From positions 84,015 through 148,014 of the forward strand of contig JASMDC010000005.1 of NCBI GenBank assembly GCA_030753015.1: DNA of 64,000 nucleotides, in the 5' to 3' direction. The notes under the pieces are model-generated. The model was not told the origin of the DNA. It was given only the letters and a program-made list of their open reading frames with translations, and searched no databases. How positions within the stretch are numbered: the first letter of the stretch is position 1; the number at the start of each line of letters is the position of its first letter. Both the position numbers and the translations under genes were made by a program. The DNA comes from Candidatus Undinarchaeales archaeon. Its GTDB lineage: Archaea; SpSt-1190; JASMDC01. This document shows positions 17,066 to 56,590 of this stretch, one piece after another.

Positions 17066-17803
17066 TCACCCATTGAAGAGCACGGGCGCAAGGCCCTTCA
17101 CGGGCACGGGGACCAGGTAGTAGTCCTCGCCGAGCAGCACGTCCCCGGAAACTGAGAAGGGCTCGAGCCGGGGAAATGCGGTCTTCCTGAAACCGAGTAG
17201 GGCCACGGCGTTCCCGTCGTCATGGTCAGCGAGTATGCACCGGTCGCCCGGCGGCGGGTACGTACGGCACGCATCGGGCCTGTCATCATATCCCTTGCAG
17301 GACAGGTCCAGGATTAGGCGTTCCCCGTGCACCTTCGCATCGACATTCAGGTCACTGCAGGCCTGGCGCACGACCACTGAGCGAGGAACGTGGCGGGCCA
17401 GAAGGCGTGCGGATTCATCATCATCTCTATACCGTACAACGACCAGGATCACATCGTCCCGCGCTGTACGAGGCACCATGTTGCCCACACCCACGAAGCA
17501 GCACAGCCCGTCACTGCACGTGCGTTTTTCACAGCGCACGCTCCGGGCCACCTTCCTGAACCGGGAGGCGTCCACCTGTTCGTCGAGATATCGATGGTCT
17601 CGCCACCGCGAGAGGCCGAGCGCACGGGCAGCGAATATCGCGGGAAGGGGCCAGAATATGTTGAGGGCCACTGCAGCAAGCACGATACCACGGGCCGAGA
17701 AACCTTCCGACCATACTACAGCAAGTGCCGTTAGTGTCCCGATCGCAAGGGTGACTACATAGAATCGTTCCTCGCGGTCCTCCAGGTCAGTGACCGTGGC
17801 CAT
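17066..17803 (-). CDS. Membrane protein with YkgJ-like cysteine motif
   Basis: A 245-aa protein with two N-terminal membrane helices (about residues 14-33 and 41-62). A soluble domain follows with CEKRTCSDGLCCF and, later, SCKGYDDRPDACRTYPPPGDRC. The RPDACRTYP part resembles the C-terminal motif of YkgJ (CxxCxxCC) metal-chelating proteins. Function is unknown. The long upstream open frame is antisense to the DUF116 gene; the ATG at 17803 lies about 30 bases from a TATA-like ATTAAT that also faces the divergent DUF116 gene. Confidence 0.6.
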   Translation of the reverse strand: MATVTDLEDREERFYVVTLAIGTLTALAVVWSEGFSARGIVLAAVALNIFWPLPAIFAARALGLSRWRDHRYLDEQVDASRFRKVARSVRCEKRTCSDGLCCFVGVGNMVPRTARDDVILVVVRYRDDDESARLLARHVPRSVVVRQACSDLNVDAKVHGERLILDLSCKGYDDRPDACRTYPPPGDRCILADHDDGNAVALLGFRKTAFPRLEPFSVSGDVLLGEDYYLVPVPVKGLAPVLFNG

Positions 17804-17860
17804 GGGCGCCTGAGGGGGCGAGGAAAAGACATTAATACCTGTCACACCTTCGCGTGCACC
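17804..17860. promoter_or_regulatory. Bidirectional promoter with one central TATA-like element
   Basis: The whole 57-base gap between divergent ATGs (17803 minus, 17861 plus) contains a single AT-rich element, ATTAAT at 17831-17836, which is its own reverse complement. It lies about 30 bases from the minus start and 27 bases from the plus start, the spacing of leaderless archaeal genes on both sides. Confidence 0.55.
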
Positions 17861-21024: not shown

Positions 21025-21252
21025 ATGGATAGCGAGATTACGGGTAAGCTCATCTCCATGCTGCTCGTAGGCCTCGTCATCGGCGTGGCCATAGGACAGC
21101 AGTCTAACAGCACGGAGCTCGAGCGATGTCGGGCAGTACAGATAGAACCAACCACCACGACTTTGGGGGATGAGGTGGTAATACGTCCCGTGGGCACGAG
21201 CGATAACTTCACGGTAGAGAGCTCCGAGACCGTGGCCGTGCCTACTCCCTGA
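21025..21252 (+). CDS. Small secreted or membrane-anchored protein
   Basis: A 75-aa protein with an N-terminal hydrophobic segment (ISMLLVGLVIGVAIG, about residues 9-23) and a threonine/valine-rich external tail. It follows the regulator pair by 34 bases on the same strand and overlaps the convergent nadE stop by 11 bases. No family is recognised; the start at ATG 21025 is preferred over GTG 21016. Confidence 0.5.
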   Translation: MDSEITGKLISMLLVGLVIGVAIGQQSNSTELERCRAVQIEPTTTTLGDEVVIRPVGTSDNFTVESSETVAVPTP

Positions 21253-22846
21253 ACCGGTTCGTGATAGGCATCCGCCGCCCCGAGCCGAAAGCACGTGTAG
21301 TGACCTTAATACCTAGAGGTGCCTGGTACCGTTTGTACTCGTTGGCATCCACACGGCGGACGACATCACACACCACGGCTTCCGGGAATCCCTTTGCGAC
21401 GATGGCATCCATGGGGAGGTGGTCCTCGACGTATGCGGCAAGGATCGGGTCGAGCACGTCGTATGGGGGCAGGTCGTCGTCGTCCCGCTGGTCCGGCCGC
21501 AGTTCCGCAGAAGGGGGCTTGTCGATGATAGCCTGCGGGATGAGCTCGCGTCCTGCCTCCTCGTTGATGAACCGAGCGAGCGCGTACACCTGGATTTTAG
21601 GCACGTCCGAGATGAGCGCTAGGCCACCGGCCATGTCACCGTAGAGTGTGGCGTAGCCTACCGCCATCTCCGACTTGTTCCCCGTGGCCAGTACAAGATG
21701 GCCGAACTTGTTGGACAGCGCCATGAGGATGTTCCCGCGGACGCGCGCCTGGACGTTCTCCTCAGCGACACCGGACCCTGTTCCCTCGAAGAAGGATTCA
21801 AGCGCATCCATATAGTTATCGACCATCGAGGCAATGGGTACCTTTTGGAACTCGATGCCGAGGTTCGCGGCCAGATGTCGCGAATGGTCCACGCTCCCTT
21901 TCGACGAGACCGCGCTGGGCATGGTGACGCCCAAGACCGCGTCCGGTCCGAGGGCACGGGCCGCGAGGGCGGCCACGACCGCCGAATCGATCCCGCCCGA
22001 CAGCCCCACGACGCACCGCTCGAAGCGGTTCTTGCGTGCATAGTCGCGGAGACCGAGACAGAGGGCCTCGGTCACTTCCTCATCACGGCCGACCGGGGCT
22101 GCGACAGCGCCTCGACCACTCTCGACCACGAGTAGCTCATCGGTGAAGCGAGGAGCTTGGGCCATGATCCGACCATCGCGGTCCATGACAAGGCTCCCAC
22201 CATCGAACACTAGGTCGTCCTGGCCGCCCACGAGGTTGACGTACACCACCGGACAACTGATCTTCTCCACAAATCGCCGGACAACGCCCTCCCTTTCGGC
22301 ACCCTTTCCCGCATAGAAGGGAGACGCGGAGATGTTCACGACCAGTTCAGCGTTGCGGGCGACCTCATCCCGAGCTGCGTCGTCCACCCAGATGTCCTCG
22401 CACACGGTCACGAGCATGGTCTGTCCCGAGATATCTACCAGCCCCCATCGTGATGTCGGTGTGAAGTAGCGCTTTTCGTCGAACACGTCGTAGTTGGGGA
22501 GATGGGTCTTATCGCAGTAAGCGACGACCTTCCCGTCGGTACACACGGCAGCGGTGTTGAAGAGCGCGTTCCCTTCCTGTCGCACTGTGCCCACGATCGC
22601 CGTGATGCCCTTGGTGGTTTTGGCGATATTCTCCAGCGACCGGCCGCACCTCTCGATGAACGCCGGTTTGAGCAAGAGGTCACGGGGAGGATAGCCGGGG
22701 ATGACGAGCTCGGGGAACACCACGAGGTCTACCTGGGATGCTTGAGCAACGGTAACAGTTCCTGCTACGAGGGAAGCGTTCCCATCAACGTCGCCGACAG
22801 TCGGGTCCACCTGTGCCAGTGCGACGGTGATGTCGGCCAACGCCAT
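21242..22846 (-). CDS. nadE: Glutamine-dependent NAD+ synthetase
   Basis: A 534-aa two-domain enzyme that amidates deamido-NAD to NAD, the last step of NAD synthesis. The N-terminal nitrilase-type glutaminase has the full triad: Glu in FPELVIPGYPPRDLL, Lys in CDKTHLPNYDVFDEKRYF and Cys in VTVCEDIWV. The C-terminal synthetase has the PP-loop VVGLSGGIDSAVVAALAARALG and ATGNKSEMAVGYATLYGDMAGG. The frame runs upstream, but ATG 22846 lies about 28 bases from the TATA element shared with the divergent asparagine-synthetase-like gene and gives the family's usual N-terminus (MALADITVALAQVDPTVGD). Confidence 0.95.
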   Translation of the reverse strand: MALADITVALAQVDPTVGDVDGNASLVAGTVTVAQASQVDLVVFPELVIPGYPPRDLLLKPAFIERCGRSLENIAKTTKGITAIVGTVRQEGNALFNTAAVCTDGKVVAYCDKTHLPNYDVFDEKRYFTPTSRWGLVDISGQTMLVTVCEDIWVDDAARDEVARNAELVVNISASPFYAGKGAEREGVVRRFVEKISCPVVYVNLVGGQDDLVFDGGSLVMDRDGRIMAQAPRFTDELLVVESGRGAVAAPVGRDEEVTEALCLGLRDYARKNRFERCVVGLSGGIDSAVVAALAARALGPDAVLGVTMPSAVSSKGSVDHSRHLAANLGIEFQKVPIASMVDNYMDALESFFEGTGSGVAEENVQARVRGNILMALSNKFGHLVLATGNKSEMAVGYATLYGDMAGGLALISDVPKIQVYALARFINEEAGRELIPQAIIDKPPSAELRPDQRDDDDLPPYDVLDPILAAYVEDHLPMDAIVAKGFPEAVVCDVVRRVDANEYKRYQAPLGIKVTTRAFGSGRRMPITNRFRE

Positions 22847-22899
22847 CGGCCGAGGGTTGCACTGGTAGGTATTTAATCGTTGTCCCCTGCAGACCGCTC
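22847..22899. promoter_or_regulatory. Bidirectional promoter with one central TATA box (nadE / asparagine synthetase-like)
   Basis: The 53-base gap contains one AT-rich element, TATTTAAT at 22870-22877, centred about 28 bases from the nadE ATG and 26 bases from the divergent GTG at 22900. Both genes would be leaderless. Both products use glutamine or ammonia to amidate a substrate, so co-control makes sense. Confidence 0.65.
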
Positions 22900-24291
22900 G
22901 TGACAGGTATCGCAGGATCCTTCGGCCCCACGGGCTCGGGGGAGGTGGTGACGGCCATGTTGCGGGGCCTGACCCACAGGGGGCCGGACGGCGCGTCCCT
23001 CTCATGCGGTTTGCTCACCCCGGAGGGCTCAGCAGCAATAGGTCATGCACGGTTCGACGCCGTGGACCGCGGGTCCCAACCAGTCCAAGGCGCAGGGATA
23101 CTGGTCATTGACGGTGAACTCAGTGGGCCGGAGGGCCCGATGGACGCGACCGCTCTTCTCAAGGCCCTCGACCTCGCCTGGCCCGAGCCGGAGACGGTGC
23201 TGGACGCTCTCGATGGACCGTATGCCATGGCCTATTGGCGGGGCCAGGACGTCATTCTTGCGCGGGACCCGTTGGGGGTGAGACCGCTTTGGTACTCTTT
23301 GTGCACAGGTCTCGCTTTCGCCTCCGAGCGGCAGGCGCTGGAAGCGGTCGAACTGACACATCCGCTCCCGCTCGAACCCCGGTCATTGCTCAGATACCAC
23401 GTCCCCTCCGACCGTCCGGACCTGGTTACGCGTGATGTGCCGTGGCTCGCTCCCGATAACGATCCCTTGGCGAAAGGGCACCCTCCCGCTGAACGGCTCA
23501 TCTCCCTCCTCACAGATTCCGTGGCCAAGCGCCTGGCTCATCGCCCGCCGGGTCCGGTCGGTGTGCTCCTCTCGGGCGGTGTCGACTCCACCGTTGTGGC
23601 GCGGCTCCTGATGGACGCAGGTGCGGATGTCCGCGGGTACGTGGCCGTGCTCGACGAACCGGGCCTGAAGGAGGCGGCCGACCTTGAGGGCGCACAACGG
23701 GCGGCGGACCACCTGGGCATCCCCCTCCATGTGGAGCGCGCGACCGTGGGCGGTGTCGAGGCGCTCCTACCACGACTCGTTCCACGAGTGGGCCATGACG
23801 CCTTGGTAGGTGTGGCTCTGGCGCTCCACCTCGGTTTTACAGCGGCCCACAGGGACGGTGTCCGAGTCGTTTTCGCGGGCCAGGGGGCTGACGAGCTGTT
23901 CGGGGGCTATGCCCGCTACCGTACGGTCCAGGACCTCGCAGGCGCCTGTCGACGGGACGTGCTGGACCTCTGGCGTCGTGACACCCTTCGTGACGACCTC
24001 GTCGCTGCTGGTTGCAGCATAGCATTGCGTACACCCTTTCTGGACACGGAGGTCGTCCGGTTCGCGCTCTCCCTCCCCGACCCCCTGCTCAGGGACGGCG
24101 ACGTCAACAAGCTCGTGCTCCGGCAGGCCGCCTCCATTCTCGGCCTCCCCAAGGAACTGGCTCTGCGGCCTAAGCGTGCAGCCCAGTACGGGAGCAGGTT
24201 GGACCACGCGATCGCCCGCTTGGCGAAGCTCGCCGGTGTTCCCCGGGACGAGTACCTTGCACAGTTCGTCGAGGGCGGGCAAGTCCATTGA
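22900..24291 (+). CDS. Asparagine-synthetase-like protein with Thr in place of the N-terminal Cys
   Basis: A 463-aa class II amidotransferase/asparagine synthetase homologue. The synthetase domain has the PP-loop GVLLSGGVDSTVVARLLM (about residues 221-238) and GQGADELFGGYARYRTVQDL, as in AsnB. The N-terminal glutaminase domain keeps LTHRGPDGASL. The start reads GTG-ACA-GGT, that is M-T-G-I-A-G, where AsnB has M-C-G-I-A-G, so the catalytic cysteine is replaced by threonine. The enzyme may use free ammonia, or conceivably Thr as a nucleophile as in other Ntn hydrolases. The GTG start lies about 26 bases from the TATA box shared with nadE. It is shorter than typical AsnB (about 500-550 aa). Confidence 0.85.
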   Translation: MTGIAGSFGPTGSGEVVTAMLRGLTHRGPDGASLSCGLLTPEGSAAIGHARFDAVDRGSQPVQGAGILVIDGELSGPEGPMDATALLKALDLAWPEPETVLDALDGPYAMAYWRGQDVILARDPLGVRPLWYSLCTGLAFASERQALEAVELTHPLPLEPRSLLRYHVPSDRPDLVTRDVPWLAPDNDPLAKGHPPAERLISLLTDSVAKRLAHRPPGPVGVLLSGGVDSTVVARLLMDAGADVRGYVAVLDEPGLKEAADLEGAQRAADHLGIPLHVERATVGGVEALLPRLVPRVGHDALVGVALALHLGFTAAHRDGVRVVFAGQGADELFGGYARYRTVQDLAGACRRDVLDLWRRDTLRDDLVAAGCSIALRTPFLDTEVVRFALSLPDPLLRDGDVNKLVLRQAASILGLPKELALRPKRAAQYGSRLDHAIARLAKLAGVPRDEYLAQFVEGGQVH

Positions 24292-47068: not shown

Positions 47069-47728
47069 TCACCGGTCGCTACCGTTCAGCACAGATCGGG
47101 TCAGTTCTCCAAGCCCCCTTATCACGTAAGGTCCCGTGTGCTCTCCCTCTCGGTCGATGAGGTACGCCCTGATGCCGATGGACCGAGGCTGCTCGAGGTC
47201 GAACTCGGGATCATCGCCGACGTGGACCACCTGCTCCGGGCTGACGCCCAGGTCGTCCACCACACGCTCCCACACGCTCGCGTCCTTCCAGACGTCCCCG
47301 AAGTCGCTGGGCACCGAGAATATGTGTTCGAAATGGTCCGAGAGCACCGGGGAAGCGAGCTTGGAGACATGGAACTCGCGACGTGCGAGAGTGACCAGTA
47401 CCAAGCGAAACCCTGCATCCCTGAGAGCGTCCAGGCACGGGGCAACGTCCGTGTACACCGTGACGCATCGCGCAAGCCGCTCGATGACCTCTCCCTGTGG
47501 TTCAGGAATACCGAAGCGCTCGAGCCAGTAATCAAGCCGGAACCATCGAGGGTCCTCACGTCCGATCTCGTCGTACGCGGCCATCACCCGGCGTCGGGCC
47601 TTCCCGAGGGGGAGACCCTCGATCTCCGATACACGACGGGGGATGTAGGTGAACCACAGCTCGTCATCGAACTTCTTGTTCACCAGTGTCCCGTCCAGAT
47701 CGAAGGATACCACGGTTATCGGGGCCAC
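47069..47728 (-). CDS. HAD-superfamily hydrolase
   Basis: A 219-aa HAD phosphatase-type protein: motif I VVSFDLDGTLVNKK, motif II LVLVTLARRE (T), conserved Lys in DVWKDASVWERVV and motif IV VVHVGDDPEFDL. The cap is helical, as in subclass I. The substrate is not evident. The open frame extends upstream across the divergent sulphur-carrier gene; GTG 47728 lies 26 bases from the central TATA box of the 52-base gap and is preferred. Confidence 0.85.
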   Translation of the reverse strand: MAPITVVSFDLDGTLVNKKFDDELWFTYIPRRVSEIEGLPLGKARRRVMAAYDEIGREDPRWFRLDYWLERFGIPEPQGEVIERLARCVTVYTDVAPCLDALRDAGFRLVLVTLARREFHVSKLASPVLSDHFEHIFSVPSDFGDVWKDASVWERVVDDLGVSPEQVVHVGDDPEFDLEQPRSIGIRAYLIDREGEHTGPYVIRGLGELTRSVLNGSDR

Positions 47729-47780
47729 GGCATCGTACCCTTCCGCGAGGTTTATAACTGCTTCCACCCATGCCATCGCC
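47729..47780. promoter_or_regulatory. Symmetric bidirectional promoter (HAD gene / sulphur-carrier gene)
   Basis: This 52-base gap has one TATA box, GTTTATAAC at 47750-47758, with a palindromic TTATAA core centred at 47754.5. It is 26.5 bases from both start codons (GTG 47728 minus, ATG 47781 plus). It is the most symmetric example of five in the window, and both genes would be leaderless. Confidence 0.7.
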
Positions 47781-47984
47781 ATGCGGATCCTGGTGAGGGT
47801 CATCGGGAAGGAGCCGAACACGGCCGAGCTGCCGACCGCTGCCACTGTAGGCGAGCTCCTGGCCGCTCAGGGAGTCAATCCGGTCACCATGATCGCTACC
47901 GTTGGAGGTCGGTTGGTCCCCGAGGACGCGGAGCTCACTGACGGTGACGAGGTCGTGCTCTACCCGGCCGTTTCGGGGGGATGA
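47781..47984 (+). CDS. MoaD/ThiS-family sulphur carrier protein
   Basis: A 67-aa beta-grasp protein ending in the required Gly-Gly (DGDEVVLYPAVSGG). Such proteins are adenylated and thiocarboxylated at the C-terminus and deliver sulphur for tRNA thiolation, thiamine or molybdopterin. The stop codon overlaps the start of a TtuA/NcsA-like tRNA thiolase gene by four bases (ATGA), so delivery of sulphur for tRNA 2-thiouridine is most likely. Start ATG 47781 fits the divergent TATA box. Confidence 0.88.
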   Translation: MRILVRVIGKEPNTAELPTAATVGELLAAQGVNPVTMIATVGGRLVPEDAELTDGDEVVLYPAVSGG

Positions 47985-48925
47985 GGACGGCAGCCGATCC
48001 GTGCACCTGTGGCAGACCGTCGGCAGTCTACCTGGCCTACGGAAAGGAGCATCTTTGCGTCCGGTGCTTCGCAAGGCTCGTGGAGAAACGCGTGAGGACC
48101 ACTGTCCGTAAGCACAGGCTCATCCGACACCACCAACGCGTGGGCGTTTGCGTGTCCGGGGGCAAGGACTCGGCAACTGCCCTCCACCTCATGCACCGGC
48201 TCTACCGGAAGCGTAGCGACCTCGACCTCGTGGCCATCACGGTGGACGAGGGCATCGCCGGCTACAGAGAGCACGGGATCGCTGCGTGCCGTGAGAACTG
48301 CGCCCGTTTTGACATCCCCCATCACGTCTTCACGTTCCATGATGCGTTCGGGATCACCATGGACGACGTAGCAGGATTGGACGACGAGCTGGGGCCGTGC
48401 ACATACTGCGGGGTGCTGCGGCGGCGCCTGCTCAACTCGGCCGCCCGCGAGCTGGGCGTGGACGTGCTGGTGCTCGGCCACAACGCCGATGACGAGGCAC
48501 AGTCAGTGCTCATGAACCTCCTGAGGGGAGATGACCGGCGTATGATCTCCATGGGTCCGGTTCCCCCGAGAACAGCGGATCCTGCCTGGATCCCGCGTGT
48601 GCGACCGCTGCGGGCCCTACTGGAGCGTGAGACCACCGCCTATGCTGTGGCTAAAGACCTTACCATGGAGCTGGGGGAGTGCCCTCATGTCACCCGGGCG
48701 TTCCGCGTGGCCGTTCGCGACATGCTCAAGGACCTCGAACATCAGTACCCCGGGAGTACCCATACCGTTGTCCGGACCTCCGACCGCCTGGTAGCGCGGC
48801 TGAGAGAGCACGACGACCGTCCTCCTGCCACAGCATGCTCTTCGTGCGGCGAACCCTCATCGGGGGATCCCTGCATGGTATGCTCGCTGCTCAAGCGTGT
48901 GCAGGAAAAATGCTCTACTGACTAG
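47981..48925 (+). CDS. tRNA 2-thiolation enzyme (TtuA/NcsA/Ctu1-like)
   Basis: A 314-aa PP-loop ATPase that thiolates a tRNA uridine using sulphur from a ubiquitin-like carrier. An N-terminal zinc finger (CTCGRP...LCVRCF) and a C-terminal one (CSSCGEPSSGDPCMVC) flank the catalytic domain with the PP-loop VCVSGGKDSATALHLMHRL. LGPCTYCGVLRRR and LGHNADDEAQSVLMNLLRGD follow; the CxxC there is a likely Fe-S ligand pair in this family. The overlap with the carrier gene supports a functional pair. Confidence 0.92.
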   Translation: MRTAADPCTCGRPSAVYLAYGKEHLCVRCFARLVEKRVRTTVRKHRLIRHHQRVGVCVSGGKDSATALHLMHRLYRKRSDLDLVAITVDEGIAGYREHGIAACRENCARFDIPHHVFTFHDAFGITMDDVAGLDDELGPCTYCGVLRRRLLNSAARELGVDVLVLGHNADDEAQSVLMNLLRGDDRRMISMGPVPPRTADPAWIPRVRPLRALLERETTAYAVAKDLTMELGECPHVTRAFRVAVRDMLKDLEHQYPGSTHTVVRTSDRLVARLREHDDRPPATACSSCGEPSSGDPCMVCSLLKRVQEKCSTD

Positions 48926-48955: not shown

Positions 48956-49711
48956 TCAGTCCGTGTCGACCCGCGGCGCTAGGATGAAGGACAGGTTCAC
49001 CTTATCGATCTGGGTGAAATCCATCCGCATCGGGTAGTCATTGCCCAGGCTGACTGAGACGAGCGGAGCGATCTTGGTACCGCTCACCATCTTCATCAGG
49101 TAGTCCAGGGAGTACCGGGACTTGGTCGCGTCCTTGGCCTCCGCCTTGATGAGACCGTCCGACTCCTTCGCCAGCTGTAGGGCGGTGTTGCCCGTATCGC
49201 CCTCGGCCTCCATGTGGAACCCATCGGGTCCGATGGAGATGATAACGTTGTCGCTGAAAATCTTGGCGTCCTCGATCCCGTCCTTGAGGATCTCGGCCCG
49301 CAGTTCCGCCGTGGCGGGGAAGTCGAGCTTGGGTACGGGGCGGTCCGCGTCGGTCGTGTCGAGCAGGGCGATTGCGAAGGTCCGTGTCGACTTGCCCTCG
49401 TAGGTGACCATGAGCTTCTCGTTCTCGAGCTTGAGCGTGAGGCCGTCGGAGGGCTTGGCACGCTTGAGCACCGTAGTGAGGTTCTCGATGTCCACGGTGA
49501 TGTTGGTCTCCTGGTCCACCTCGAACGTCTCGAAGGCCGGCGAGAGGAGGTTGAAGATCACCATGGCCACGTTGGCAGGGTCCATGGCAGCGAGCTTGAT
49601 GCCGTCCTTGGAGATGTTGAATGTGCACTGGTCCTTCACCAGGCTGGAGATTGTGGAAACGGTCTCCTTGAGGAGCCGTGTGTCCTGAATACGCGCTTCG
49701 AACATGATCAT
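48956..49711 (-). CDS. pcn: DNA polymerase sliding clamp (PCNA)
   Basis: A 251-aa archaeal PCNA, the ring that tethers replicative polymerase and other enzymes to DNA. Typical segments are FEARIQDTRLLKETVSTISSLV, the KDGIKLAAMDPANVAMV interdomain part, a linker near DTTDADRPVPKLDFPATAEL and the C-terminus MDFTQIDKVNLSFILAPRVDTD. ATG 49711 overlaps the stop of the upstream OB-fold gene (ATGA), so the two are translationally coupled. It converges with the tRNA thiolase gene. Confidence 0.95.
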   Translation of the reverse strand: MIMFEARIQDTRLLKETVSTISSLVKDQCTFNISKDGIKLAAMDPANVAMVIFNLLSPAFETFEVDQETNITVDIENLTTVLKRAKPSDGLTLKLENEKLMVTYEGKSTRTFAIALLDTTDADRPVPKLDFPATAELRAEILKDGIEDAKIFSDNVIISIGPDGFHMEAEGDTGNTALQLAKESDGLIKAEAKDATKSRYSLDYLMKMVSGTKIAPLVSVSLGNDYPMRMDFTQIDKVNLSFILAPRVDTD

Positions 49712-50061
49712 TCACCCTTCATCTTGGCTTCGAGGGCCCTAACCCGCTTGAGCAGACCTACGTCAAGGTTATTAATCTTTTCAACGGCCTCGCCGCGGAG
49801 CTCGAAGCCCCCCTCCAGGGGCACCACGCGACCGATGAGCTTCACCATGTCACCTTGGGTGATGCCGTCCAGACGCTCGATGAGGTCGAGGTCGTCGAAG
49901 AAGGCCGTTGCCGTGCCCGTGCCGTCGTCCAGGGCGATGGTCGAGAGCTCCGAGTCCTTGCCGACCACCGTACCGATTATCCGTATACGCCGGTCCTCGG
50001 TGGTGATGGCCCCGATCTCCCGCTCAACGCTGGGACGCCGTCGCAGTTCTTGGCCTTCCAT
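49708..50061 (-). CDS. OB-fold nucleic-acid-binding protein coupled to PCNA
   Basis: A 117-aa OB-fold protein (about residues 22-98: IRIIGTVVGKDSELSTIALDDGTGTATAFF...GDMVKLIGRVVPLEGGFELRGEAVEKI). The pattern resembles RPA-type and tRNA-anticodon OB folds, so it may bind single-stranded DNA and act with the clamp. It overlaps the pcn start by four bases. ATG 50061 lies about 27 bases from the TATA box shared with the divergent PAC2 gene. Confidence 0.78.
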   Translation of the reverse strand: MEGQELRRRPSVEREIGAITTEDRRIRIIGTVVGKDSELSTIALDDGTGTATAFFDDLDLIERLDGITQGDMVKLIGRVVPLEGGFELRGEAVEKINNLDVGLLKRVRALEAKMKGE

Positions 50062-50116
50062 CCCGTCGGGCGACAACCCCAAGAAATATAAATCTACGAC
50101 CGGGCCCCGCAGGCCC
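50062..50116. promoter_or_regulatory. Bidirectional promoter (OB/PCNA operon / PAC2 gene)
   Basis: The 55-base gap has a single AT-rich element, AAATATAAAT at 50084-50093 (minus strand ATTTATATTT). It lies about 27 bases from the OB-protein ATG and about 29 bases from the PAC2 GTG at 50117. Confidence 0.6.
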
Positions 50117-50911
50117 GTGGACCTGCAGTTCCGGGCCCTCTCTCGTATGAGGCCACGCGATCCCGTCCTTGTAGAGGGCCTTCCCGGTATCGGGAACATC
50201 GGGCTCATCTCGGTCGACTACCTCATCGACCGACTCGAGGCCCGACCCTTCGCCGAACTGTACTCACGACACTTCCCTCCGGTGGCCATCCTCGACGATG
50301 ACGATCAAGCGAGCCTCCCGTCCAACGAGCTCTACGTCCACCGTCGGTGCGGTGGCGACATCCTATTCCTCAGGGGAGACGCACAAGCCATCTCGTCAGA
50401 AGGCCAGCACGCGGTCGCACGGGGCATCATCGATACCTGCCACACTCTCGGCGTTCGTCGGGTGGTGACGGTTGGAGGATTCTACACGGACCCTGGTGAG
50501 ATCAAGGGTGAGCCGAAGATCCTCGTGGCGACATCGTCCGCTGCAGTCCGTGCCACTATAGCCGCTGGCGGGCTGGCTGGACGCGTGGAGTTCCAGTCCG
50601 ACCTCGGTGGTGGTACAATCTTCGGCGCCAACGGATTGCTGCTGGGATTCGCCCACCTTCAGGGGATGGAGGGATTATCCCTCATGGTGCAAACCCTCCA
50701 TAAGGACGAGTACGGATTCGACCTGGACGCGAGCTGCATGGCGATCGACGCCCTCTCCCGCCTCCTGGACATCCCCTGCACACCCCAGGACCTGGCCCGG
50801 GACATGGCCGCCGTTTCCAACGAGATATCCGACTCGGCACTAGGGCCGCGCCACAGCATTCTCAAGGCCCTTACCAAGGCGCCTTCGGAGGACGACTTCT
50901 ATGTCAGATGA
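50117..50911 (+). CDS. PAC2 family protein (proteasome assembly chaperone-like)
   Basis: A 264-aa PAC2-family protein: VLVEGLPGIGNIGLISVDYLIDRLEARPFAELYSRHFPP at the start, then VVTVGGFYTDPGEIKGEPKILVATSS and GGGTIFGANGLLLGFAHLQGMEGLSLM. Eukaryotic members chaperone proteasome assembly; archaeal roles are not settled. The long upstream frame is antisense to the PCNA/OB genes; GTG 50117 fits the shared TATA box. Its end overlaps the next gene by 11 bases. Confidence 0.85.
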   Translation: MDLQFRALSRMRPRDPVLVEGLPGIGNIGLISVDYLIDRLEARPFAELYSRHFPPVAILDDDDQASLPSNELYVHRRCGGDILFLRGDAQAISSEGQHAVARGIIDTCHTLGVRRVVTVGGFYTDPGEIKGEPKILVATSSAAVRATIAAGGLAGRVEFQSDLGGGTIFGANGLLLGFAHLQGMEGLSLMVQTLHKDEYGFDLDASCMAIDALSRLLDIPCTPQDLARDMAAVSNEISDSALGPRHSILKALTKAPSEDDFYVR

Positions 50912-53669: not shown

Positions 53670-53867
53670 ATGGACCTATCGAAGCCGTACTCGAAGCTCG
53701 CCCTTCTGTTCATCCTCGTCCTCAGCATCCTCTTCTGGTTCGGATTCCCTATGAGCATCCTGGCCATCCTCGTGATCGTATGGGTCGTGTACTCCATCGA
53801 GTTAATGGAGAGCCTTGAGAGGAAGGGGAAGAAGAGCAGGGTGAAACAGGGGCTCGAAGAGGACTAG
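53670..53867 (+). CDS. Small membrane protein
   Basis: A 65-aa protein with two hydrophobic segments (LALLFILVLSILFWFGF and ILAILVIVWVVYSIELM, about residues 9-45) and a highly charged C-terminus (ERKGKKSRVKQGLEED). The ATG at 53670 follows GGGGTGA, a usable ribosome-binding site, so it may be translated from a transcript shared with the microprotein just upstream. It overlaps the convergent membrane-protein stop by four bases. Unknown function. Confidence 0.6.
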   Translation: MDLSKPYSKLALLFILVLSILFWFGFPMSILAILVIVWVVYSIELMESLERKGKKSRVKQGLEED

Positions 53868-55666
53868 ATCCTGCTGAATGGATGGTGATGGAGCCACCGC
53901 CACCGGGGACGCGCACGGATGAGGATCTCATCAACGGGAACGCAGTAGAGCTCGTCCTCGACACCCGTGGGCGTGCACTGGAGCGTCGCTCCATCTTGTA
54001 CCATCACATAGGTCATGGTTGATGTGAAGCCGAAGGGGAACACCTGGACACGGAGAACACGCGGCGGTAGACGGAGCACGGTCTGCCCCCGGGCTGTCGT
54101 CCAATAATCGAACCGCGTCATTCCATCGCCCTCGACCGTAATCCCTTGGGAAGGCAGTACACGAACGTGCGTGCGAGGGATGGGCTCTCCATCGGGACCG
54201 ACAACACGCAGTGGGACCGCAGTCACGTCGTTGAAGATATGGTCCGTCAATCCCTGCTGGTCCACCCGGAGCAGATGGCAGCTCGGGCACGATACCAGCG
54301 GAATCCGCTCTACGAAGGGGAGCCCTTCCAGCACCGGCACTGGCCCGTGAGAGAACACCCACCGTGTCCCGTACCCGAGCATGCGCACAAGGGTGATGTT
54401 CTCGTCAGGTACTACATGCTCTGAAAACGATCCCGTGAAGAGTGCGATCTCCCTGAAGAAGGTCGGGGAGAGGATGACGCCCTCCGGATTCTCTAGCCCA
54501 CTAAGCTCTGCCAGCACGGCCTGGTTGGTACTCCAGATCCCCTCCCGAGCATCGGCGTGAGGATCGACGGGGATCGTGAGGACGCACCAGACCACCAATC
54601 CCGCCACCACGACGGCGGTGAGTGTGGAATCGCCTCGTACCGCGCGACGGACTCCTACCATCGCTAGCGCCACAAGGGGCAGGAGGATGGTGACCACGAA
54701 CTTCCAACGGAAAAGGACCGGTGTGTACACCGCGAACACAAGAAGTGGGGCGGCGGCCCATGCCGCGAGGAGCGGTACGGCCTCAGGCCGTTCGTCCTCG
54801 TCCCTCGACCTGAGGGTGAGGCCTAGGACGGCCAACGCGACAATCGGCCAGCCCGCGAACCCGGGCAGGGTCCATAAGGGCTCGTGCTCGCCCCCGACCC
54901 CCCACTCCTCGGCCTGTGTGCGTCCGGTCTCCTGCATCACCTTCAGGAAGATTGGAAGGCCGTTGGCGTAGAGGTACGCCGACCAGAGGAGCTGGCCTGC
55001 AACGGCTCCTGCGATGAACATGCCAAGAACGTGCATCTCCCTGTCAACTCCACGCCCGCGGGCCCGTCTCCAGGCGCTGAGGAGCGCGAGGGAGAGGAGG
55101 CAGGGGCCGTAGTTGAGCTTTGTGAGCATACCAAAAAAGGCCAACATGAAACCCCTGTAAGCGGCGTGCCGATCACCATCCAGAGCCTTGAGATATAGCA
55201 CATGGGTAACCGCGTACAGGAAACAGAGCATGGCAGGGTGGAGCACGAGGCGAGCGTACGAGACGAAGGCGGGGTGGAGGGCGAGCACCGTGATCGTCGC
55301 AAGGGCCGTCCGTCGGTCCAGGAGCGTCCGCAGCAGGATGTAGTGGAGAGCCAATGCCATGCCTGCGAACCCGGCCACCACCAGATGGGAGGCCCAGAGG
55401 ATATCGCCAGTGAACACCGTAACGGCAGCGATGACCGAAAAGAATCCGGGGGGATGGAGGATGAAGACCTTGGTCAGGAGGCGGGGAACACCGTCAATCA
55501 GGAGTGAGCGGGCCACGAGCATGTCGCGGTAGGCATCGTGCGCGGTAGTCGAGTCGAATCCCTCTAGAGAGGCGACGGGTACGAGCTCCGCGTGGTCCCA
55601 CCCGACGGCGTACCACATGGTGGCGAGCAGCACGACCAAAAGTGCAATCCGGTCCTCGACATCCAC
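53864..55666 (-). CDS. GT-C/PMT-like membrane glycosyltransferase candidate
   Basis: A 600-aa membrane protein. The N-terminal luminal loop TTAHDAYRDMLVARSLLIDGVPRLL...HPPGFF is typical of GT-C (PMT/ArnT-like) enzymes, where an Asp of the first loop is catalytic. About ten helices follow to residue ~360, then a soluble C-terminal domain (about 365-600) with FGFTSTMTYVMVQDGATLQC. The frame is open for 295 codons upstream, antisense to the PfkB gene; GTG 55666 is 26 bases from the shared TATA box and is preferred over ATG 55684, which would precede the expected mRNA start. Confidence 0.7.
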   Translation of the reverse strand: MDVEDRIALLVVLLATMWYAVGWDHAELVPVASLEGFDSTTAHDAYRDMLVARSLLIDGVPRLLTKVFILHPPGFFSVIAAVTVFTGDILWASHLVVAGFAGMALALHYILLRTLLDRRTALATITVLALHPAFVSYARLVLHPAMLCFLYAVTHVLYLKALDGDRHAAYRGFMLAFFGMLTKLNYGPCLLSLALLSAWRRARGRGVDREMHVLGMFIAGAVAGQLLWSAYLYANGLPIFLKVMQETGRTQAEEWGVGGEHEPLWTLPGFAGWPIVALAVLGLTLRSRDEDERPEAVPLLAAWAAAPLLVFAVYTPVLFRWKFVVTILLPLVALAMVGVRRAVRGDSTLTAVVVAGLVVWCVLTIPVDPHADAREGIWSTNQAVLAELSGLENPEGVILSPTFFREIALFTGSFSEHVVPDENITLVRMLGYGTRWVFSHGPVPVLEGLPFVERIPLVSCPSCHLLRVDQQGLTDHIFNDVTAVPLRVVGPDGEPIPRTHVRVLPSQGITVEGDGMTRFDYWTTARGQTVLRLPPRVLRVQVFPFGFTSTMTYVMVQDGATLQCTPTGVEDELYCVPVDEILIRARPRWRWLHHHPFSRI

Positions 55667-55717
55667 GGGGAATAGGACGAACATATGGTTTATAAAGATG
55701 GAGACTCCCAGTGCCGT
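55667..55717. promoter_or_regulatory. Symmetric bidirectional promoter (GT-C-like gene / PfkB gene)
   Basis: The 51-base gap has a perfectly palindromic TATA box TTTATAAA at 55689-55696, centred 26.5 bases from GTG 55666 (minus) and 25.5 bases from GTG 55718 (plus). Upstream ATGs exist in both frames but would lie outside the predicted transcripts. Confidence 0.7.
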
Positions 55718-56590
55718 GTGGATGCCCCGGACCTCGTGGTGGTCGGCCATCTCACGCACGACCGCATCGTTCGCGGCTCGCAAGAGGACGCGTGCATGGG
55801 GGGCGTGCCCGCACACTTCGGGCTGACCGTTGCCGCCCTGGGCCTTAGCACAGGTGTGGTCACTACTGTAGGCCCCGACCTCGATCCTGACCACCTCCGC
55901 GTCCTGCACGCCGCCGGTATCGACCTCACGGGTGTCCGTATCGGTCAGTCGCCCACGACGACGTTCGTTAACATCTACGAGGCGGGCCAAAGGGTACAGG
56001 AATGTCCTGCCGTCGCCGACGGTATCGGTCCTGACGATGTACCGGCCGCTTATGAAAAAGCCCGAGCCGTCCACCTCGGACCGCTCATGGGCGAGATCGA
56101 TCCTGCGGTCGTCGACCGGTTCCCGCACGCTCGCATATCCTTGGATGTACAGGGATTGGTGCGTCGTCGGAAGGGCCGACAGGTGCTGTCCAAGGCCCTC
56201 GATCGGGATACGCTCCCCCGACGGCTCGACGTGATAAAGCTCGGTGAGGACGAGCTCGAGCTGGCCACTGGCACCACGGACGTGGTGGAGGGTTCGGAGC
56301 GAGCAGTGGAGCTCGGGGCCAGCATGTCCATCGTCACCATGGGCGTCCATGGCTCGCACGTGTACGACGGACGGCACCACGATATTCCCGCGTTCCCCGT
56401 GGAGGAAGTGGACCCCACCGGCGCTGGCGATGCCTACATGGCCGGCTTCCTGGACGCACTCCTCGCGGACCGGGATGTACCGGAGTGCGGACGGTTCGCC
56501 GCCGCATGCGGTGCATTGTGTGTTACTAGCGTGGGCTCGGGCTTCGCGCATTCCCGAAAGGAGGTGGAACGTCTCGCATGGGGGACATGA
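55718..56590 (+). CDS. PfkB-family sugar kinase
   Basis: A 290-aa ribokinase/PfkB-family kinase: N-terminal GG motif in MGGVPAHFGLTVAALGL, anion hole and ATP site in DPTGAGDAYMAGFLDALL (catalytic Asp of GAGD). VIKLGEDELELATGT marks the nucleotide-binding part. The substrate could be a sugar, nucleoside or inositol-type compound. GTG 55718 fits the central TATA box. It overlaps the start of the next gene by 13 bases and probably shares an mRNA with it. Confidence 0.88.
   Translation: MDAPDLVVVGHLTHDRIVRGSQEDACMGGVPAHFGLTVAALGLSTGVVTTVGPDLDPDHLRVLHAAGIDLTGVRIGQSPTTTFVNIYEAGQRVQECPAVADGIGPDDVPAAYEKARAVHLGPLMGEIDPAVVDRFPHARISLDVQGLVRRRKGRQVLSKALDRDTLPRRLDVIKLGEDELELATGTTDVVEGSERAVELGASMSIVTMGVHGSHVYDGRHHDIPAFPVEEVDPTGAGDAYMAGFLDALLADRDVPECGRFAAACGALCVTSVGSGFAHSRKEVERLAWGT
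56558..56567 (+). promoter_or_regulatory. Strong Shine-Dalgarno sequence inside the PfkB gene
   Basis: AAGGAGGTGG at 56558-56567 is an extended anti-16S match, 10 bases before ATG 56578 of the flippase-like gene. It decides that start over the ATG at 56587 and shows that internal operon genes use ribosome-binding sites while first genes are leaderless. Confidence 0.7.

Follow-up and report, generated by a model that had tools for sequence, protein, structure and literature searches.

Can a single TATA box serve two protein genes that lie back to back? The question is raised by the 52-bp gap at positions 47729..47780 of the window, the whole 64-kb stretch of contig C73 that was analysed, in which a candidate shared TATA core (47751..47757) is centred 26.0 bases from one start codon and 27.0 from the other. 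An earlier note on this DNA had described the gap as one of five divergent pairs built on one layout. The gaps and their genes are as follows.

17804..17860, no strand: divergent gap of 57 bp, shared core ATTAAT at 17831-17836
17066-17803, minus strand: left gene of the 57-bp gap, without a Pfam match, with a strong coding score
17861-18553, plus strand: right gene of the 57-bp gap, DUF116 (Pfam)
22847..22899, no strand: divergent gap of 53 bp, shared core TATTTAAT at 22870-22877
21242-22846, minus strand: left gene of the 53-bp gap, nadE, ATG start (Pfam)
22900-24291, plus strand: right gene of the 53-bp gap, asparagine-synthase-like, GTG start (Pfam)
47729..47780, no strand: divergent gap of 52 bp (the index pair), shared core TTTATAA at 47751-47757
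47069-47728, minus strand: left gene of the 52-bp gap, HAD hydrolase, GTG start (Pfam)
47781-47984, plus strand: right gene of the 52-bp gap, ThiS/SAMP2-like, ATG start (Pfam)
50062..50116, no strand: divergent gap of 55 bp, shared core AAATATAAAT at 50084-50093
49708-50061, minus strand: left gene of the 55-bp gap, OB-fold, with PCNA (48956-49705) next on that strand
50117-50911, plus strand: right gene of the 55-bp gap, PAC2, GTG start (Pfam)
55667..55717, no strand: divergent gap of 51 bp, shared core TTTATAAA at 55689-55696
53864-55666, minus strand: left gene of the 51-bp gap, PMT-type glycosyltransferase, GTG start (Pfam)
55718-56590, plus strand: right gene of the 51-bp gap, PfkB-family kinase, GTG start (Pfam)

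The layout was confirmed for all five pairs, with gaps of 57, 53, 52, 55, and 51 bp at these coordinates and one AT-rich core per gap (5/5), surrounded by DNA of 56-78% GC. The spacing is near-equal on the two sides. From the first base of the start codon to the core centre we measured 25.5-30.5 bases on both sides of every gap, in agreement with the 25-30 bases that had been estimated. Pfam matches were obtained on both sides in four of the five pairs and, in the 57-bp pair, for DUF116 only. The nadE start (22846, minus strand) is backed by an end-to-end match in locus L032. The ThiS/SAMP2-like gene and the next gene (47981-48925) overlap by 4 bases (ATGA), which suggests translational coupling in a small operon. 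We consider it probable (roughly 0.85) that a gap of 51-57 bp is a single-TATA bidirectional promoter, which would drive two leaderless mRNAs in mutual exclusion.

The promoter motif was learned from co-directional genes only and is hence blind to divergent pairs. It reads A-A-(G/C)-N-T-W-T-W-T-A-W-W, i.e., a BRE plus a TATA box; in co-directional genes it most often starts at -34 relative to the start codon, which puts its core centre at -26. AT content peaks at -24 to -29, and C is the most frequent base at -1. A core centred at -26 combined with C at -1 is the geometry of leaderless genes and implies putative leaderless mRNAs; with the TATA core about 26 bases before the start codon, there is no room for a leader. 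Two opposite promoters of this kind that share one box should therefore leave a gap of 52-53 bp, and this predicted distance falls where the peak of gap lengths lies. The core spacing thus supports the leaderless geometry claimed for both sides, as a prediction from sequence.

In the proposed mechanism, TBP would bind the one near-symmetric TATA box, and an A-rich BRE on either side would guide TFB and so set the orientation. RNA polymerase would start about 26 bases away, on the start codon, giving a leaderless mRNA either way. With both transcripts beginning on start codons, the gap would come to roughly double the distance from TATA box to start (2 x 26-27 = 52-54). The complex could assemble in just one orientation at a time, and the two genes would therefore compete for the box they share. 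From this arrangement we infer that transcription runs both ways, that the 5' ends are leaderless, and that the two transcripts are mutually exclusive.

The frequency of such gaps across the genome had been set beforehand as the test that could refute the proposal, and an excess was found. From the assembly (3.85 Mb, 117 contigs) we sampled 1.007 Mb in stretches, the last set of which was held out. In this 1.0-Mb sample, 19 of 135 divergent gaps measured 50-58 bp, compared with 4.4 predicted from flanking gap lengths (p=2e-7). The peak was present with the discovery window left out (16/124 versus 4.0 expected, p=5e-6) and in the held-out contigs alone (5/40 versus 1.6 expected, p=0.022). A more conservative scan test, whose smoothed reference distribution contained the peak, gave p=0.005. 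With the window excluded, 50-58 bp was the densest 9-bp bin, or lay at most 1 base from it, under four start-scoring schemes. No 50-58 bp peak was observed in the same sample for co-directional gaps (23 versus 19.6 expected) or convergent gaps (2 versus 3.5 expected). About one-seventh of back-to-back gene pairs lie about 53 bases apart, mostly with one central near-symmetric TATA box. The composition of the assembly looks even in the sampled stretches, with one ribosomal protein S8 gene, and its quality is 98.9% complete and 5.0% contaminated. Its 3.85 Mb compare with 0.6-1.1 Mb in nine listed genomes of the same class, making it either an unusually large class member or, with that contamination, a partly mixed bin.

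A peak of this sort could be produced by gene calling, if AT-rich DNA scored as non-coding and starts were called equidistant around any AT-rich element. The caller was home-made and trained on long ORFs, with starts chosen without any promoter model. It gave window pairs 1, 2, and 4 (57-, 53-, and 55-bp gaps) exactly, and did not recover the other two of the five with the starts of the earlier note. For pairs 3 and 5 (52- and 51-bp gaps), it extended the minus-strand gene towards or over the neighbour; the kinase start of pair 5 was likewise placed further inside the gene. The earlier note's starts rest, for these two pairs, on the N-termini and on homology. For the 52-bp pair, this evidence consists of the HAD start MAPITVVSFDLDGT and of the SAMP2 profile, which matches the ThiS/SAMP2-like protein from residue 1; for the 51-bp pair, the PfkB domain matches the kinase starting at residue 19. 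In several partners of the sampled 50-58 bp pairs, domain matches begin at residues 2-8, which fixes the N-termini and therefore supports the called starts. Moreover, the peak survives the four scoring schemes and the held-out contigs, and the same caller gave no significant peak in genomes G002, G014, G011, and G018. An origin in gene calling is thereby largely refuted, and we regard it as very improbable.

The single-TATA bidirectional promoter further calls for one box used by both genes, and centring and core use both support one shared element per gap. With start codons as a proxy for transcription starts, a single core lies midway between the opposite starts in the five window gaps and in 15 of the 19 sampled gaps of 50-58 bp, the most AT-rich 8-mer being located at most 4 bp from the midpoint. 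Shuffled gaps of this length gave a mean of 4.6 and a maximum of 10 centred 8-mers. Four of the 19 failed the centring test: C30:22675 only because its central box is equalled by another AT run, whereas C30:39096, L204:9289, and L200:11178 lack a box at the centre and are possibly start-call errors. A single position matrix with a cut-off of 5 bits served to score same-core use, and at this cut-off both directions score in only 11 of the 19 pairs; in all 11, where the position-constrained promoters of both genes reach 5 bits, the same core is used. In gaps of 59-75 bp, the same core is used in 5 of the 6 pairs with both promoters scoring. Many gaps of 76-130 bp hold, by eye, separate boxes, one near each gene, as in the 88- and 90-bp gaps of the window; that no shared cores appear beyond 75 bp is a consequence of the position limits applied and was not counted as evidence. 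A test of whether the best forward and best reverse motifs share a core was dropped, as this is also true in about 60% of the 76-130 bp gaps of this genome. Core sharing is common there because the boxes are near-symmetric anyway.

The same data bear on a different explanation, in which only one gene depends on the box, the other uses a separate, unrecognised promoter inside the neighbour gene, and compact packing shortens the gaps. It would fit with the low scores of the weaker direction in some pairs, the BRE especially, and with the roughly half of all divergent genes that have no recognisable box at the expected place. However, a narrow peak at double the TATA-to-start distance does not arise from packing alone, no such peak is seen for co-directional or convergent gaps, and in 15/19 gaps the box sits centrally between the starts. 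We therefore find a box serving one gene quite unlikely.

The box had also been called near-symmetric. Its near-symmetry stands, whereas a special symmetry does not: the weak-direction score of shared boxes is hardly above that of ordinary one-way promoters of the same genome (7.8 versus 6.0 bits, p=0.10). Extra palindromicity of the shared boxes was rejected as not significant overall (p=0.10), with p=0.03 in a score-matched subset. With so little difference in symmetry between shared boxes and one-way promoters, two-way firing appears to be an intrinsic capacity of this organism's promoters, as has been argued for P. furiosus, and gene placement would be the special feature. In the pooled boxes, A-A is found 7-8 bp from the core centre in 62-71%. 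The median weak-side BRE score, from a procedure that favours high values, is 1.1 bits, compared with -2.4 for random sequence and 0.5 for ordinary promoters. Several pairs have a poor BRE in the weaker direction, and some boxes may fire mainly one way.

A second genome carries the peak. In the distant archaeon G027 (1.05 Mb, another lineage), 9 of 67 divergent gaps measured 50-58 bp, compared with 2.6 expected (p=0.0017); its motif mode is also -26, its peak spans 51-56 bp, and most such gaps hold a single central TATA box. No significant 50-58 bp peak was observed in genome samples of G002 (same class as the source, motif mode -30), G014 (motif mode -36), G011, and G018, and no gap peak in two haloarchaeal replicons. 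Haloarchaea are a lineage known for leaderless mRNAs, and leaderlessness alone therefore does not produce the peak. Because the samples are small, its absence elsewhere is weak evidence. In Natrinema thermotolerans CP031304.1 (L233:39594-39645), the divergent rfbD and rfbB, which have linked functions, are separated by a 52-bp gap with one central TATA-like element.

The earlier note had further held that the window pairs make functional sense, which was not borne out. In the other loci examined, nadE was never found beside asnB-like genes, and none of the other window pairs was found as neighbours. Beyond the window, shared-box pairs are mostly unrelated housekeeping genes, and functional links are the exception. 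According to domain matches, sampled 50-58 bp pairs include DNA ligase and nitroreductase, NikR and CbiM, aIF5A and a PIN nuclease, and arginyl-tRNA synthetase (argS) and thymidylate kinase (tmk); further pairs are two radical-SAM proteins, and an Elp3-like protein (elp3) and an RDD protein. At L131:2363-5474 (G000:C30:22363-25474), shared-box gaps of 52 and 51 bp, belonging to MGMT-like/small ORF and DNA ligase/nitroreductase, lie 2 kb apart, and the region is therefore packed with likely two-way promoters. If the shared box had been selected as a means of co-regulating genes with linked functions, NikR/CbiM and the Natrinema rfbD/rfbB pair, with its 52-bp gap and one central box, would be fitting cases. 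Yet most pairs are unrelated (argS/tmk, DNA ligase/nitroreductase, elp3/RDD), no window pair is kept as neighbours in the loci examined, and genes on a shared box would have to compete instead of being expressed together, leaving a selected role of this kind unlikely.

The novelty of the single-TATA bidirectional promoter was overstated at first. In Pyrococcus furiosus, opposite transcripts arise from one TATA box in vitro, with starts 49 bp apart, and the promoters carry a BRE-TATA-BRE motif, explained by symmetric TBP binding; the second product is an antisense RNA of head-to-tail genes, considered non-functional by the authors (PMC6640164). As in P. furiosus, one near-symmetric TATA box is centred here between opposite starts about 50 bp apart. 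P. furiosus is not predominantly leaderless, whereas in this archaeon each of the two products would be the leaderless mRNA of a protein gene, and the size of the gap is set by the start codons. According to PMC12825309, bidirectional promoters occur in all prokaryotes and are most often tied to mRNA, and PMC10268837 places those of the Salmonella chromosome mostly between divergent genes. In bacterial bidirectional promoters, a -10 element is common to both directions and the starts are most frequently separated by 18 bp (Warman et al. 2021, as cited in PMC12825309 and PMC10268837). They resemble the gaps studied here in a symmetric core element, divergent transcription, and a site that is often between divergent genes and gives two mRNAs. 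They differ in spacing (18 bp), whereas the archaeal geometry is about 52 bp and visible from the genome sequence alone. Because single-TATA two-way transcription (~50 bp) in P. furiosus (PMC6640164) and bacterial counterparts (PMC10268837) have been reported, the mechanism is already known. Among the searchable papers, we came across none that describes an archaeal gap peak locked to the start codons, which is not proof of absence. The use of the mechanism to set the spacing of protein-gene pairs, with many housekeeping genes among them, is unusually clear in this archaeon.

Whether some archaeal lineages use two-way TATA activity as a gene-packing rule, with many divergent pairs, housekeeping genes included, held at double the TATA-to-start distance, is in our judgement evenly poised. 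If they do, two mutually exclusive leaderless mRNAs would be served by one promoter, and the position of the gap-length peak would reveal how far a lineage's TATA box lies from the start. Archaeal bidirectional initiation has so far been discussed mainly as antisense noise; a peak at twice the TATA-to-start distance would be sequence-only evidence that evolution expresses pairs of protein genes this way. The gap peak also predicts leaderless 5' ends and helps to identify correct start codons, including GTG, and scanning for it is a cheap test for any archaeal genome.
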